Assembly: GCF_038049925.1 (NCBI RefSeq) | Contig: NZ_CP145809.1 | Coordinates: forward strand, 1,426,001 to 1,490,000 | Length of the DNA stretch: 64,000 bases | Direction of reading: 5' to 3' | Source: Georgenia sp. M64 | Lineage (GTDB): Bacteria > Actinomycetota > Actinomycetes > Actinomycetales > Actinomycetaceae | Position numbers and translations under genes: made by a program | Shown: positions 33,025 through 43,339 of the stretch, one piece after another | How the letters are laid out: each line of letters opens with the position of its first letter | How positions within the stretch are numbered: the stretch's first letter is position 1 | Notes under the pieces: model-generated | The model's database searches: none | What the model was told of the DNA's origin: nothing | The model's input: only the letters and a program-made list of their open reading frames with translations

Positions 33025-33933
33025 TCAGCGCCCGCCCGGTGCGGGCGGCCCGCCCTTGTCGCCCTTGCCCGTGTCGCGGCGGCGCAGGTACCGCTCGAAC
33101 TCCCGGGCGATGGCCTCACCGCTGGCCTCGGGCAGCTCGGCGGTGTCCTTGACCTGCTCGAGCTGCTGGATGTACTCCGCGACGTCGGGGTCCTGACCCG
33201 CCAGCTCGTCCACCCCCGCCTGCCACGCGCGGGCGTCCTCGGCCAGCTCGCCCACCGGCAGCGGCTCGCCGACGAGCTCCTCGAGCTTGACGAGGATCGC
33301 CAGGGTCGCCTTCGGCGAGGGCGGCTGCGCGACGTAGTGCGGCACCGCCGCCCACACGCTGAGGGTGTGCAGGTCCCGCTCGGTGGCGTAGTGCCCGAGC
33401 ACGCCGACGATGCCCGAGGGGCCCTCGTAGTCCGAGCCCTCCACCCCGAGGAGGGCCTGGACCTGGGGGTCGTTGGAGGAGGTCTGGACCGGGATGGGCC
33501 GCGAGTGGGGGACGTCGGCGAGCAGCGCACCGACCCCGACGACGGTGCCGACCTCGAGCTCGGTGGCGACGTCGAGGATCTCGTCGCAGTAGTCGCGCCA
33601 GTGGAAGGACGGCTCGACGCCCTGGACGAGGACGACCTTGCGACCCGCCAGCGGGGTCGTGACGACCGAGATCGTCGTCTCGGGCCAGGTGAGGAGGCGG
33701 TTGCCCTCCTCGTCGGTGCTCACCTGGGGCCGGTTGACCTGGAAGTCGTGGAAGTCCTGCGGGTCGAGCTCGTGGACGACCTCGGCGTCCCACGCCTCGG
33801 CGATGACCTCCAGCGCCTGGGTGGCGGCGCCGCCGGCGTCGTTCCAGCCCTCGAACGCGGCCAGGAGGATGGCGGGGGGCAGGTCGTGCCCGCCGGCGGC
33901 GTCGTCCCGCTCCGCGTCATGGCTGCTGGTCAT
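33025..33933 (-). CDS. PAC2-family protein
   Basis: 302 residues from the ATG at 33933; TAGGGT (minus strand, 33945-33940) lies six bases upstream. Typical actinobacterial PAC2 (proteasome assembly chaperone-like) architecture: AILLAAFEGWNDAGGAATQALEVI, then VVLVQGVEPSFHWRDYCDEIL, VVGVGALLADVPHSRPIPV and GIVGVLGHYATERDLHTLSVWAAVPHYVAQPPSPKATLAIL. The C-terminal tail is charged and Gly/Pro-rich. The bacterial role is unknown. It is noteworthy that it lies in the pupylation neighbourhood of a genome segment lacking proteasome genes. Confidence 0.9.
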   Translation of the reverse strand: MTSSHDAERDDAAGGHDLPPAILLAAFEGWNDAGGAATQALEVIAEAWDAEVVHELDPQDFHDFQVNRPQVSTDEEGNRLLTWPETTISVVTTPLAGRKVVLVQGVEPSFHWRDYCDEILDVATELEVGTVVGVGALLADVPHSRPIPVQTSSNDPQVQALLGVEGSDYEGPSGIVGVLGHYATERDLHTLSVWAAVPHYVAQPPSPKATLAILVKLEELVGEPLPVGELAEDARAWQAGVDELAGQDPDVAEYIQQLEQVKDTAELPEASGEAIAREFERYLRRRDTGKGDKGGPPAPGGR

Positions 33934-36900: not shown

Positions 36901-36934
36901 GCCCGTGCCGCGCGGCTGCGTAGACTCGCCCGTC

Positions 36935-38194
36935 GTGACCGATGAGCCCCCCACGCCCTCCGCCCTCGACGACGCCACGGGCGTCGCGGACCCGCGGGAC
37001 GACGCCGACCTGCCGGGCGGTCCCGCCCGGCGCCGGGGCCCGCTCCGGGCCGGCGAGCGGGTCCAGATCACCGACACCAAGGGTCGGCTGTACACGGTCG
37101 TCCTCACCCACGACGGCTTCTTCCAGAGCCAGCGCGGCTCCTTCCGGCACAGCGAGCTCATCGGCCGCCCGGACGGCTCGGTCGTCACCACCGCCACCGG
37201 TCACCAGGTCCTCGCGCTGCGCCCGCTGCTCAGCGACTACGTCCTGTCCATGCCCCGCGGCGCGGCCGTCGTCTACCCCAAGGATGCCGGCCAGATCGTC
37301 CAGATGGGCGACATCTTCCCCGGCGCCCGCGTGGTCGAGGCCGGCGTCGGCTCCGGCGGGCTGAGCATGAGCCTGCTCTCGGCGGTGGGGGAGCGCGGCC
37401 ACCTCCTCTCGGTCGAGCGGCGCGAGGACTTCGCCGACATCGCCGTCGGCAACGTCGAGTCCTGGTTCGGCGGGCCGCACCCGGCGTGGGAGGTCCGCGT
37501 CGGCGACCTCGCCGACGTCCTGCCCGACGCCGTCGAGCCCGGCTCGGTGGACCGGATCGTCCTGGACATGCTCGCCCCGTGGGACAACCTCGCCGTCGCC
37601 GCGGATGCCCTGGCGCCGGGCGGGGTGCTCATCGCCTACGTCGCCACCACCACCCAGCTGAGCCGCTTCGTCGAGGACGCCCGGACGAGCGAGCAGTTCA
37701 CCGAGCCGCGCGCGTGGGAGTCGATGGTGCGGACCTGGCACCTCGAGGGCCTGTCCGTACGGCCGGACCACCGGATGATCGGGCACACCGGCTTCCTCGT
37801 CACCACCCGGCGCCTGGCCCCGGGCACCACCCCGCCCCAGCGCACCCGCCGGCCCGCCAAGGGCGCCTACGCCCCCGACGGCGAGTGGGCGCCCGAGGAC
37901 GTCGGCGAGCGGTCGATCTCGGACAAGAAGGTCCGCCGGGTCCGCCGCGACATCCACCGTCGCAGCGTCATGGAGGAGACCGGCATGGCCTCCCAGCCCG
38001 GTCCGGCCACGACCACCGAGCCGGCAGGTCCGGTCACGACCACCGAGTCGGCGGGTCCGGTCACCACCACCGAGCCGGCGGGTCCGGTCACCACCACCGA
38101 GCAGGTAGGCCCCGGCGGGACCGCCGCACCGGTCGGGCCCGTCCGGAGCGCCGCCACCCCGGCCACCCCCGAGGAGCCCGAGGACCGCGCCTGA
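36935..38194 (+). CDS. trmI: tRNA (adenine-58-N1) methyltransferase
   Basis: 419 residues from the GTG at 36935, with TAGACT at 36921-36926 eight bases upstream. Homologue of Mycobacterium Rv2118c. The N-terminal beta domain ([36 protein letters not shown]) is followed by the SAM-binding Rossmann fold [38 protein letters not shown] and the catalytic segment [12 protein letters not shown]. After about residue 335 there is an unusual long tail of TTTEPAGPV nonapeptide repeats, encoded by a 27-bp DNA repeat. Upstream of mpa as in most actinobacteria. Confidence 0.92.
38000..38107. repeat. 27-bp tandem repeat in the trmI C-terminal tail
   Basis: Four 27-base units (38000-38026, 38027-38053, 38054-38080, 38081-38107) encode the repeat GP[A/V]TTTE[P/S/Q][A/V]. 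The frame is kept in every copy. Confidence 0.9.
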
Positions 38195-38274: not shown

Positions 38275-40032
38275 ATGGCACAGGCGGACCGGTTCGGGGA
38301 GGCCCGGGCCCGGGAGCTCGAGCAGCAGGCGATCTCGCTGGCGTCGAAGAACGAGCGGCTCGCCGAGGCTCTCGACGCCGCCCGCCAGCGGCTCGTCCAG
38401 CTCCAGGACCAGCTCGACAACGTCTCGAAGCCGCCCGGCTCGTACGGCACGTTCCTCGCCGGGCACCTCGAGGAGCGCGAGGCCGACGTCTTCGTCGGCG
38501 GCCGCAAGATGCGCGTCGCCGTCTCCGCCGCGGTCCCCCTCGGCGCCCTGCACCCGGGGCAGGAGGTCCGCCTCAACGAGCAGCTCCTCCTCATCGCCGC
38601 CGGGCCGTACGAGACCACCGGCGAGCTCGTCACGGTCAAGGAGGTCCTCGACGGCGACCGCGTCCTGGTCCTCGCCCGCAGCGACGACGAGCGCGTCATG
38701 CGCCTGGCCGGCCCGCTCCTCGGGGTGCACCTGCGCGTCGGGGACGCCCTCACCGCCGACATGCGCACGAACTTCGTCACCGAGCGGGTCGTGCGCTCCG
38801 AGGTCGAGGAGCTCCTCCTCGAGGAGACCCCCGACACCCAGTACTCCGACATCGGCGGCCTCGGCCCGCAGATCGAGCAGATCCGCGACACCGTCGAGCT
38901 GCCCTTCCTCCACCCCGAGCTCTACCGCGAGCACGGCCTCAAGCCGCCCAAGGGCGTCCTGCTCTACGGCCCGCCCGGGTGCGGCAAGACCCTCATCGCC
39001 AAGGCGGTGGCGACCTCGCTCGCCGGCACCGCCGACCGGCGGCGGGAGGAGCGCGGCGAGGAGCGGGGCGGCGCGGCCCGCAGCTACTTCCTCAACATCA
39101 AGGGGCCTGAGCTCCTCAACAAGTACGTCGGCGAGACCGAGCGGCAGATCCGGGTCATCTTCGCCCGCGCCCGGGAGAAGGCCGTCCAGGGCATCCCCGT
39201 CGTCATCTTCTTCGACGAGATGGAGTCCCTGTTCCGCACCCGCGGGACCGGCGTCTCATCCGACGTCGAGACGACGATCGTGCCCCAGCTGCTCAGCGAG
39301 ATCGACGGCGTCGAGAAGCTCGAGAACGTCATCGTCATCGGTGCCTCCAACCGCGAGGACATGATCGACCCGGCCATCCTGCGGCCGGGCCGCCTGGACG
39401 TGAAGATCAAGATCGAGCGCCCCGACGCCGACGGCGCGACGGAGATCTTCGCCAAGTACCTCACCACCGACCTGCCCCTGCACCCCGCCGAGCTCGACCG
39501 TCACGACGGCGACGCGGCCGCCGCCGTCGCCGCGATGATCGACGCCGCCGTGACCGCCCTCTTCGGCACCGGGCCGGAGAACGAGTTCCTCGAGGTCACC
39601 TACGCCAGCGGCGAGAAGGAGGTCCTGCACTTCAAGGACTTCGCCTCGGGCGCGATGATCGCCAACATCGTCGACCGCGCCAAGAAGCGGGCCATCAAGG
39701 ACCTCCTCGCCACCGGCGAGCGCGGCCTGCGCACCGAGCACCTCCTCGGCGCGCTGTCGGCCGAGATGCGCGAGAACGAGGACCTGCCCAACACCACCAA
39801 CCCCGACGAGTGGGCGCGGGTCAGCGGCAAGAAGGGCGAGCGGATCACGTTCATCCGCACCCTCGGCGCCGGGCGGTCCCTGCCCGCGCCGGACGAGGGG
39901 AGGGGCGTCCACGACCTCCCGGTCCACCACGGTGGGTCCGGCACCACCGTGGGCGACGTCCACGGCCCGGCCGCGGACCACCTCGGTGCCCGCGACGTCG
40001 ACACCATCACGCCCACCGGCGGCTACCTGTAG
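38275..40032 (+). CDS. mpa: Mpa/ARC proteasomal-type AAA ATPase
   Basis: 585 residues from the ATG at 38275, after GAAGGGA. Ring-forming unfoldase for pupylated proteins. N-terminal coiled coil (about residues 8-50) that binds Pup, OB domains (about 70-170), AAA module with Walker A GPPGCGKT at 232-239, Walker B VVIFFDEM at 309-316, IGASNRE sensor and [14 protein letters not shown] arginine-finger region. It ends TPTGGYL: the penultimate Tyr matches the GQYL tail that docks on the 20S core, although no prcBA lies in the locus. A small insertion of charged residues follows Walker A ([13 protein letters not shown], about 254-266). Confidence 0.95.
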
Positions 40033-40040
40033 GGGGACCG

Positions 40041-41726
40041 ATGAGCGTGCACCGCCCCATGGGCATCGAGACCGAGTACGGGCTCCTCGAGCACGGCAAC
40101 CCCGGCGCCAACCCCATGGTGCTGTCCGCCCACGTCGTGGCGGCTTACGCGGGGTCCGCGCTGCGCGGGCGCACCGTCCGCTGGGACTACGCCGGGGAGG
40201 ACCCGCTCGCCGACGCGCGCGGGTTCCGCCTGGACCGGGCCAGCGCCCGGCCCTCCCAGCTCACCGACGACCCGGACGCGCCGGCACCGGCGGAGGACGG
40301 CGACGGCGAGGACGCCCGCCAGGTCGGTGGCGAGGGCGCCCGCGAGGGCGACGGCGCCGTGCGCACCACCCGCCTGCGCCGTCCGAGCGCGGCCGAGCTC
40401 GCCCTGCCCACGGCCAACAACGCCGTGCTCACCAACGGGGCCCGGCTCTACGTCGACCACGCCCACCCCGAGTACTCCAGCCCCGAGGTGACCAACCCCC
40501 TCGACGCCGTGCGCTGGGACCGCGCCGGCGAGCTCGTCATGCGCGGGGCGATGGACGCCCTCCACGCCACGGCGCTCGCCCCGGACGTCGTCCTGTACAA
40601 GAACAACGTCGACGGCAAGGGCGCCGCGTACGGCACCCACGAGAACTACCTCGTCGAGCGGTCGGTGAACTTCGGCGACATCATCCGCTACCTCACCCCG
40701 TTCTTCGTCACCCGGCCGATCTTCTGCGGGGCGGGCCGGGTCGGCCTGGGCCAGCGCAGCGAGCGGCCCGGCTTCCAGATCTCCCAGCGCGCCGACTACG
40801 TCGAGAACGACGTGGGCCTGGAGACGACGTTCAACCGCCCGATCATCAACACCCGCGACGAGCCCCACGCCGACGCCGAGCGCTACCGGCGCCTGCACGT
40901 CATCGGCGGCGACGCCAACCTCTTCGACGTCTCCACCTACCTCAAGGTCGGCACCACCGCCCTGCTGCTGTGGCTGCTGGAGAACGACGCCGTCCCGCTG
41001 CAGCTCGACGCCCTCATGATCGCCAACCCGGTGGGGGAGACGTGGGCGGTCAGCCACGACACGTCCCTGACCCACCGGCTGACCATGAGCGACGGCAGCG
41101 AGATGACCGCGCTGGAGATCCAGCGCGTCTACCTCGACGTCGTCGCCGACGCCGTGCGCCGGGCCGCGCCGCCCGCCGGGGTCGACGCCGCCACCGCCGA
41201 CGTGCTCGAGCGGTGGGCCGGTGTGCTGGACCGTCTGGCGACCGACCCCGCCACGGCCGCCGCGGAGGTGGAGTGGGTGGGCAAGCTCCAGCTCCTCGAG
41301 CGCATGCGCGAGCGGGAGAACCTCCCGTGGGACCACCCCAAGATCCAGGCGCTGGACCTGCAGTGGTCGGACCTGCGGCCCGAGCGCTCCATCGTCGCCC
41401 GGTTGGCGGCCGCCGGGCGCGTCGAGCGGCTGGTCAGCGACGCCGAGGTCCTCGCCGCCGAGCGCACCCCGCCGACCGACACCCGTGCCTGGTTCCGCGG
41501 GCAGGTCGTCGAGCGCTACCCCGGCCAGGTCGCCGGGGCGAGCTGGGAGTCGGTCGTCCTGGACGTCCCCGGCGCCGAGCACCTCGTGCGCGTGCCCATG
41601 ACCGACCCGCTGCGCGGCACCCGCGCCCACGTCGGCGCCCTCCTCGAGGGCGCGGAGACCGCCGCGGAGCTGCTCGAGGCTCTCACGGGCGCGCGCCCAG
41701 CCGCCGGGCGCGGCGCCACGCCGTAA
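40041..41726 (+). CDS. dop: Deamidase of Pup / depupylase Dop
   Basis: 561 residues from the ATG at 40041, eight bases after mpa. It converts the C-terminal Gln of Pup to Glu and removes Pup from targets. The glutamine-synthetase-like core begins [19 protein letters not shown] (catalytic Glu-Thr-Glu region); [40 protein letters not shown] and [29 protein letters not shown] are conserved. The segment at residues 70-118 is an Asp/Gly/Ala-rich expansion of the Dop-specific loop, making the protein about 60 residues longer than the usual roughly 500. Confidence 0.95.
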
Positions 41727-41756
41727 CCTGGAACGACGCAACAGCAGGAGGAAGAC

Positions 41757-41942
41757 ATGGCACAGCAGGAGCAGCGCCGCACCACCCGGCGGGACGAGCC
41801 GGACCCCGTCGACCCGCCTGTCGCGGCCGCGGCGCAGACCCGGGTCCAGGAGGTCGACAGCCTCCTCGACGAGATCGACTCCGTCCTGGAGGCCAACGCC
41901 GAGACCTTCGTGCAAGGTTTCGTGCAGAAGGGCGGCCAGTGA
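41757..41942 (+). CDS. pup: Prokaryotic ubiquitin-like protein Pup
   Basis: 61 residues from the ATG at 41757, preceded by AGGAGGAA. The N-terminal half is charged and disordered; the helix [33 protein letters not shown] is the Mpa-binding and ligation part. The C-terminus is GGQ, so Dop must deamidate it to GGE before PafA can attach it. The stop overlaps the pafA start (GTGA). In most actinobacteria prcB and prcA lie between pup and pafA; here there is no room for either. Confidence 0.96.
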
Positions 41943-43339
41943 CCGCCAGGCGCATCTTCGGCGTCGAGACGGAGTACGGCATCACCTGCGCCCAGCCCCC
42001 GGCCGCGCCGGGGCACGAGCAGCAGGTCATCACCGCCGACGACGCCGCGCGCTACCTCTTCCGCCGCGTCGTCGCCCTCGGCCGCTCCTCCAACGTCTTC
42101 CTGCGCAACGGGGCCCGGCTCTACCTCGACGTGGGCTCGCACCCGGAGTACGCCTCCGCCGAGTGCGACGACGTCCACCAGCTCGTCGTCAACGACCGGG
42201 CCGGGGAGCGCATCCTCGACGAGATGACCGAGGAGGCCAACGGCCTCCTCGCCGAGGAGGGGATCGCCGGGACGATCCACCTGTTCAAGAACAACGTCGA
42301 CTCGGCCGGCAACTCCTTCGGCTGCCACGAGAACTACCTCGTGCGCCGCCGCCGGGACTTCCCGGCCATGGGCGAGGCCCTCGTCCCGTTCTTCATCACC
42401 CGGCAGATCCTCACCGGCGCCGGGCACATCCGCCCCCGCGCCGGCGGCGGCGCCAGCTACGCCTTCTCCCAGCGCGCCGACCAGATGTGGGACGCCATGA
42501 GCTCGGCGACCACCCGGTCGCGCCCCATCATCAACACCCGCGACGAGCCGCACGGCGACGCCGAGCTCTACCGGCGCATGCACGTCATCGTCGGTGACTC
42601 CTCGGTCGCCGAGACCACGACGATGCTCAAGGTCGGCATGACCGAGCTGCTGCTCGCCGTCCTCGAGGACGGCGTCAAGATCCGCGACCTCGTCCTGGCC
42701 GAGCCCATGCGGGCGATCCGCGAGATCTCCCACGACACCACCGCCACCGTCCCGGTCGAGCTCGCCACCGGGCGGCGGCTCAGTGCGCTGGACATCCAGG
42801 AGGAGTTCTACGCGCGCGTGCGCGGCCACCTCGACGCCGAGGGCCGGTCCGCCGAGCTCACCGCCGTCCAGCGGAAGGTCCTGGAGCTGTGGGAGCGGGG
42901 CCTGCGGGCGCTGCGCACCCAGGACCACTCCCTGGTGGAGACCGAGCTCGACTGGGCGATCAAGGGCCGGCTCCTCGAGCGCTACCGCGCCAAGCACACC
43001 CTCGGCCTGGACGACCCGCGCGTCGCGCGGCTCTCGCTGGCCTACCACGACATCTCCGCCGTGCGGGGCCTGGCCCCCTCCCTCGTGGCCCGCGGCCTCA
43101 TGGCCCGGATCACCACCGACGAGGAGATCGCCGACGCCGTCACCCACCCGCCGACCTCGACCCGGGCCAAGCTGCGCGGGGACTTCGTCGCCGCGGCGCA
43201 GGAGCGGCGCCGGGACATCACCGTGGACTGGGTGCACCTGAAGATCAACGACGCCGCCCAGCGCACGGTCGTCCTCAAGGACCCGTTCTCGCCCGTCGAC
43301 GACCGGGTCGACGCGCTCATGGCGGCGCTGCGGGCGTGA
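41939..43339 (+). CDS. pafA: Pup-protein ligase PafA
   Basis: 466 residues from the GTG at 41939, overlapping the pup stop by four bases. It attaches deamidated Pup to lysines of target proteins with ATP. The N-terminal [14 protein letters not shown] contains the catalytic Glu/Asp region; [43 protein letters not shown] and [28 protein letters not shown] match PafA rather than Dop (no Dop loop). The C-terminal domain ([44 protein letters not shown]) is complete. Confidence 0.95.

Follow-up and report, generated by a model that had tools for sequence, protein, structure and literature searches.

Proteasome-free pupylation is already known from Corynebacterium. In C. glutamicum, the pup gene lies just before pafA, ARC, Dop and PafA are present and the 20S core genes prcBA are absent, as described in reviews and in PMC3511204. 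It has been proposed that ARC acts in this organism as a Pup-dependent unfoldase, disassembling pupylated ferritin, while Dop recycles Pup (PMC8223512). About half of the sequenced actinobacteria are said to have lost the core (PMC6466877), the ATPases of organisms without proteasome genes are said to lack the C-terminal interaction motif, and the role of pupylation without a proteasome is considered an open question (both PMC3511204). Here we describe the locus mpa(arc)-dop-pup-pafA of Georgenia sp. M64 (Actinomycetota; family Actinomycetaceae in GTDB), located in a stretch of 64,000 nucleotides (contig NZ_CP145809.1, positions 1,426,001 to 1,490,000, hereafter the window), which belongs to a genome without a 20S core and encodes an Mpa that ends in Gly-Tyr-Leu.

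As in C. glutamicum, the window has pup, pafA, dop and arc intact, and the genome contains neither prcB nor prcA. The other GQYL activator, Bpa, is missing from it. Unlike the Corynebacterium-type rule given in PMC3511204, ARC of the window retains the terminal G-Y-L, and this tip is conserved in 11 genomes. The window Mpa is the same AAA unfoldase as in the Mpa-20S system, being 56-64% identical to the 30 chains of solved Mpa structures that were listed, and it shares the penultimate Tyr and the terminal Leu; it differs in the absence of 20S and Bpa, in having GGYL instead of GQYL and in a tether of 69 residues as opposed to 36-41. A C-terminal tail with a penultimate Tyr, placed after a poorly conserved stretch, is also used by Bpa/PafE (PMC4254994), but this is an unrelated protein, with no match in the host genome or in any of the 37 family genomes searched.

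Tagging genes without a 20S core

The four genes are all on the + strand and intact according to the open reading frame translations, Pfam and searches against solved structures. These confirmed what had been read from the sequence alone: the gene order, the GGQ end of Pup, the completeness of Dop and PafA, and the overlap of the pup stop and the pafA start by 4 bases (GTGA). Mpa shows by Pfam the AAA domain and the proteasomal-ATPase OB domains (Prot_ATP_ID_OB_N/C), matches the mycobacterial Mpa 7px9 with a phmmer E value of 1.6e-203 and has 7pxd and 5kwa as its best Foldseek matches. What we take to be the Walker and pore-loop motifs can be read in its translation.

No prcBA genes were found between or beside the four genes, and the proteasome fold PF00227 was not matched at E 0.001 anywhere in the complete host genome (one contig, 4,183,773 bases, 100% completeness). 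Thus, the absence first noticed at the locus extends to the whole genome, and the interpretation as proteasome-free pupylation is supported. The search works, since it detected the core in 122 of 198 genomes of the order; it also gave matches in 10 of 14 control genomes. Within the family, PF00227 was found in none of 151 genomes, drawn evenly from a larger group, and in none of the 37 family members among 59 sampled genomes, while 145 of the same 151 genomes have Pup and 141 match Mpa at E 1e-60. Bpa was present in 14 of the 59 sampled genomes, corresponding to 14 of the 17 with PF00227. The sequence-only reading had left open that the core is encoded elsewhere; an unrecognised gene or a missing contig is not supported and is very improbable, given a single complete contig without PF00227, the lack of matches in the 150 other family genomes and the absence of Bpa. 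In these samples the core is absent family-wide, and the tagging genes of the window are intact.

These counts also speak against the suggestion that the loss is recent, at least in a simple sense, as no family genome of the 151 has the core although nearly all keep Pup. The simplest history is one old loss of prcBA, probably before the family diversified, although the core may also have been lost in parallel. In the Mpa tree (n=111; sequences truncated behind the WAR motif wherever it was found; quick method with only Shimodaira-Hasegawa-like approximate likelihood ratio test support, midpoint root and long branches flagged) the 30 family rows are joined with support 100, one further genus (g8) groups with the window's genus and the position of another (g14) is unsettled. 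The 4-base pup/pafA overlap is common to all nine genomes of the genus and to G015, and occurs in 26 of the 61 distinct family loci with pup (two loci without a pup match and two repeats excluded); the estimated pafA start is at most 44 bases from the pup stop in 60 of the 61 (exception 212). Short gene overlaps are common in operons, and for this reason the shared overlap argues only weakly for a single deletion.

Outside the family, f5, f11, f17 and f20 contain members with prcBA as well as members without it, which suggests that the core was probably lost several times separately. In family f19, neither Mpa (at E 1e-80) nor PF00227 is matched in any of the 13 genomes of the order sample, the ATPase having seemingly been lost along with the core.

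A conserved tip on a variable tether

The rule that the tail goes with the core is borne out in our sample outside the family, save for a few exceptions. At 105 loci with prcBA, the Mpa tail is GQYL in 103, WQYL in one and GHYL in one. These comprise 78 of 80 named loci, which are those most similar to the window Mpa (L046 and L051 were excluded for lack of a core), and 27 further loci (L168-L194), with some species in both subsets; at the named loci a prcB match lies in the neighbouring stretch for 72, and the core of the other six was confirmed genome-wide. Conversely, a hydrophobic residue followed by a terminal Leu, Ile or Val was found in none of 28 prcBA-less genomes of six other families (f3, 4; f5, 4; f9, 6; f11, 8; f17, 5; f20, 1, the last being fragmented). 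In Serinicoccus (L051) both the core and the tail are missing, and in two Ornithinimicrobium the mpa stretch is devoid of pup, prcBA and pafA, yet the core and the tail are both present in the genome.

Some loci depart from this pattern. L046, from a possibly incomplete metagenome bin, has no core match and ends in STGTYL, which runs counter to the rule. Two f11 loci, L202 (G208) and L201 (G312), have PF00227 genes near mpa and no QYL tail in any nearby frame; these two genomes are not counted among the 105 loci. A separate observation concerns the genome of L035, Serinibacter arcticus (G342; L267, L268), where one PF00227 match falls in two pieces within one open frame of 377 amino acids, which hints at an inserted segment within a proteasome subunit.

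The closeness of the window's GGYL to GQYL had been pointed out from the sequence. The Tyr-Leu pair is indeed kept, but the end, TITPTGGYL, belongs to a motif of its own clade, [DE]-[TSN]-[IV]-[TA]-P-x-x-G-Y-L. The PxxGYL end occurs in 11 genomes (G000-G008, G015 and G021), which represent the window's genus, g8 and g14; position -3 is Gly in all of them, as opposed to Gln in 104 of the 106 YL-ending tails of other loci. In these three genera ARC keeps the tip P-x-x-G-Y-L-COOH, and the tether before it differs freely in both length and sequence. The retained G-Y-L contradicts the statement in PMC3511204 that the motif is missing from the ATPases where there is no proteasome.

Conservation was assessed in ten distinct genomes with the GYL end, G006 being dropped as near-identical to G000. 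None of the 38 columns of the linker is invariant (mean pairwise identity of 0.19), whereas the last 12 positions include four invariant ones, P -6, G -3, Y -2 and L -1. By the all-pairs Nei-Gojobori method, the ratio of nonsynonymous to synonymous differences per site (pN/pS) was 0.22-0.28 in core segments, 1.15 in the linker, 0.67 in the last 13 residues and 0.44 in the last nine; in the last three codons pN was 0.00 and pS 0.28, the residues being constant while synonymous codons change. The linker value suggests neutrality, an idea that was dropped as the value is inflated by uncertain alignment: among five pairs aligned individually, the four with enough changes gave a linker pN/pS of about 0.5-0.8 versus 0.1-0.2 for the core. 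The last 11 codons had no amino-acid change in G000/G006, G002/G004 and G001/G003, and each of the two further pairs had two. Judged from these alignments, a tightly kept tip follows a linker that is weakly constrained and rich in insertions. The spacer between mpa and dop is variable, with 8-16 nucleotides and differing sequence in the nine of ten genomes with a dop start found, so a signal at the RNA or DNA level is an unlikely cause of the tip conservation.

Terminal hydrophobic residues occur in C-terminal degrons and in PDZ-type ligands. The C-terminus could thus be a stability or processing signal, protecting Mpa from a housekeeping protease or C-terminal peptidase or being recognised by one, and it is mainly the terminal hydrophobics (Y-L, F-L, V-L, L-I) that are shared family-wide. 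We consider this improbable, since the invariant Pro -6 and Gly -3 of the ten genomes demand more than a hydrophobic end.

The tether differs as well. Counted from the WAR motif, the chain ends after 36-41 residues (median 37) at the 105 loci with prcBA, versus 49, 57, 66, 69, 70, 71, 72, 83, 93 and 99 in the ten genomes (median 70.5; 69 in the window); the 20S-type spacing has therefore been abandoned while the tip was kept. The near-fixed spacing in the presence of the core is consistent with reports of docking being limited by the residues adjacent to the tail (PMC12288473) and of a partly concealed tail (PMC8142254). In an AlphaFold single-chain model the predicted local distance difference test score (pLDDT) is below 50 for residues 535-585, consistent with disorder. 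A kept tip with free spacing behaves like a tethered short linear motif. The Gln of GQYL has been cited as changeable without loss of association (PMC6017811), so the change from Gln to Gly alone need not abolish 20S binding; it is the lack of a core, together with the tether, on which we base the argument.

A putative partner other than the 20S core

According to these data, we tentatively favor, with a probability of roughly 0.43, that the tip now docks on a putative partner protein other than the 20S core. PafA would attach Pup, and Dop would prepare and remove it; Mpa/ARC, by analogy with C. glutamicum, would pull on proteins tagged with Pup, either to unfold them or to take assemblies apart, with no handover to 20S. 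After the loss of prcBA, the ARC tip would have been retained, unlike in other proteasome-less lineages, as a tethered short linear motif docking in trans on a non-20S protein and recruiting it to the unfoldase. The suggestion that the tail may dock on a different partner is favoured by the conserved tip on a freed tether. A more specific version, in which the tip is retargeted to a different ring protease, such as ClpP1P2, or to the depupylase Dop, forming a hybrid machine that degrades or recycles Pup-tagged proteins, seems unlikely to us. The rim pockets of ClpP accept short hydrophobic motifs; it is named for that reason and no specific pointer to it exists.

The tip could instead bind the ARC ring itself, at the pore, the beta-grasp domain or a neighbouring subunit, and regulate the free unfoldase, 20S docking having been one of two jobs of a tail that was already folded back into the channel. 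Such a latch would make a new partner unnecessary and would account for a tip conserved in the absence of 20S; published structures of mycobacterial Mpa show the C-termini directed into the axial channel (PMC8142254, PMC8755798). However, the linker and tail have low pLDDT and no self-contact is confidently predicted in the single-chain model, the tip is missing in other prcBA-less lineages, and a variable tether of 49-99 residues is long for a latch. This explanation is doubtful, though it deserves more weight than a stability signal or retargeting to ClpP1P2 or Dop.

We give a similarly low weight to the tip being a relict, in which case several branches would have lost prcBA independently and at a late stage, with the tip under 20S selection until recently and its decay pending. 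The tip and the charges of the hairpin resemble the 20S-docking set, the tail state differs among family members, the linker is still weakly constrained in the individually aligned pairs, and the unsettled placement of g14 relative to the genus would fit such a history. On the other hand, the core was found in none of the 151 family genomes, the genus has one common pup/pafA junction (a weak point, given how often operon genes overlap), the spacing is no longer constrained although the tip is still there, and position -3 has changed from the Gln of nearly all other YL tails to Gly.

Docking on a non-20S partner also has several observations against it. As said above, the linker is relaxed and not strictly neutral, and its weak constraint gives this best explanation slightly less weight and the relict slightly more. 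Strict conservation involves only four residues in ten related genomes of three genera, so that few codons carry the argument. The beta-hairpin near the alpha ring, part of a second contact with the 20S, whose charged pair is D504-K505 in M. tuberculosis (PMC8755798), loosely retains its acid-base pair in this clade, with an acid in 11 of 12 GYL rows and Lys or Arg in 12 of 12 (E-K in the window; one gene is present twice among the rows), and the same would be expected of a relict of a later loss. The genus g9, with tail RDYL, retains roughly the ancestral spacing, 36-37 residues counted from a slightly different motif. In addition, 30 of 68 family Mpa genes do not have the hydrophobic-[LIV] terminal pair, and the locus suggests no partner for the tip.

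Those 68 genes come from 62 of the 141 family genomes with an Mpa match; they combine best matches and a choice across genera, with close relatives over-represented, and omit repeats or cut copies (L099, L127, L128, L163) and L123-L126, which contain no mpa. Leu or Ile is the last residue in 41 and a hydrophobic residue precedes a terminal Leu, Ile or Val in 38. Besides the GYL end, DYL is found in seven genes and LI in twelve, in some after W-D-x-V, and EFL, VL, ML and AL also occur. The expectation that many prcBA-less relatives keeping the tail would weaken a recent loss thus met a split outcome, with 0 of 28 genomes in the six other families and 38 of 68 genes in the own family. Six genomes (G012, G013, G062, G066, G090 and G097) have two Mpa and two Pup matches each, and the two tails of G097 differ (EDVL and DDYL).

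Candidate partners, neighbouring genes and significance

A second protein with the same tail was looked for with the pattern PxxGYL-stop, in which Leu was allowed as CTN only. The host genome has one match, in mpa; the pattern matches mpa in all nine genomes of the genus, and no second carrier was established in them. Four extra matches were obtained in three genomes, of which three read TGG in place of a stop and the fourth is of unchecked frame; a reversed control pattern gave 1-4 matches per genome, both strands summed.

The Dop-loop (residues about 70-126), extended in the window Dop, was also considered. Its motif T[TS]x[LV]RRP[ST] occurs in 11 of 11 genomes with the GYL end versus none of 72 parsed loops of named prcBA-containing loci (74 with a Dop match), and RRP[STG] in 16 of 30 loci with the tail versus 2 of 30 without it. 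The loop was not counted as a partner of the tail, as the looser form RP[ST]xxExALP is also found in several other genera of the family, tail-less ones included, the expression was chosen post hoc and the rows are related. The nearby PAC2 gene, which had been pointed out as a proteasome-chaperone relative, turned out to be uninformative, since the C-terminus of its product carries no docking motif. The features of the window are collected in Table 1.

Table 1. The pupylation genes, parts of Mpa and neighbouring genes in the window
Feature	Positions	Strand	Description
mpa/arc	38275-40032	+	585 aa; coiled coil, OB, AAA, beta-grasp, linker, tail; Pup-dependent AAA unfoldase
hypervariable linker, beta-grasp domain to tail	39880-39993	+	Mpa residues about 536-573
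conserved C-terminal motif, 10 residues	40000-40029	+	clade consensus [DE][TSN][IV][TA]PxxGYL
dop, deamidase/depupylase, extended Dop-loop	40041-41726	+	561 aa; PF03136 1.3e-176; phmmer Dop 5lrt 2.6e-165
pup, C-terminal VQKGGQ	41757-41942	+	61 aa; PF05639 1e-20; PDB Pup 5.9e-10
pafA, Pup ligase, GTG start	41939-43339	+	466 aa; PF03136 8.6e-156; phmmer PafA 4b0t 4.7e-128
trmI-like tRNA methyltransferase, upstream neighbour	36905-38194	+	PF14801, PF08704
FKBP-type protein	downstream of pupylation locus		domain search
PAC2-family protein, C-terminal PAPGGR	33025-33933	-	PF09754 1.1e-58

In g9, the distance between mpa and pup exceeds that of the window: mpa ends at 775 and pup lies at about 4578 in L127 (G127), and the corresponding positions in L128 (G070) are 9146 and about 2586. 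Other raw reading frames, possible candidates for a partner gene, are found between the two genes in both loci.

As pupylation without a proteasome was known before, the novelty lies in a docking tip that is maintained without its dock. No recognisable precedent for a kept tail in species devoid of prcBA was found in the literature searched, which is not proof of its being unpublished. The coupling between tail and core is loosened both ways, with a tail and no core in the clade of the window and a core and no tail in G208 and G312. The clade thus represents a natural experiment, in which the unfoldase is the same, the docking tip is retained and the docking site is gone, and the kept tip suggests that it may be in contact with something other than the 20S core.

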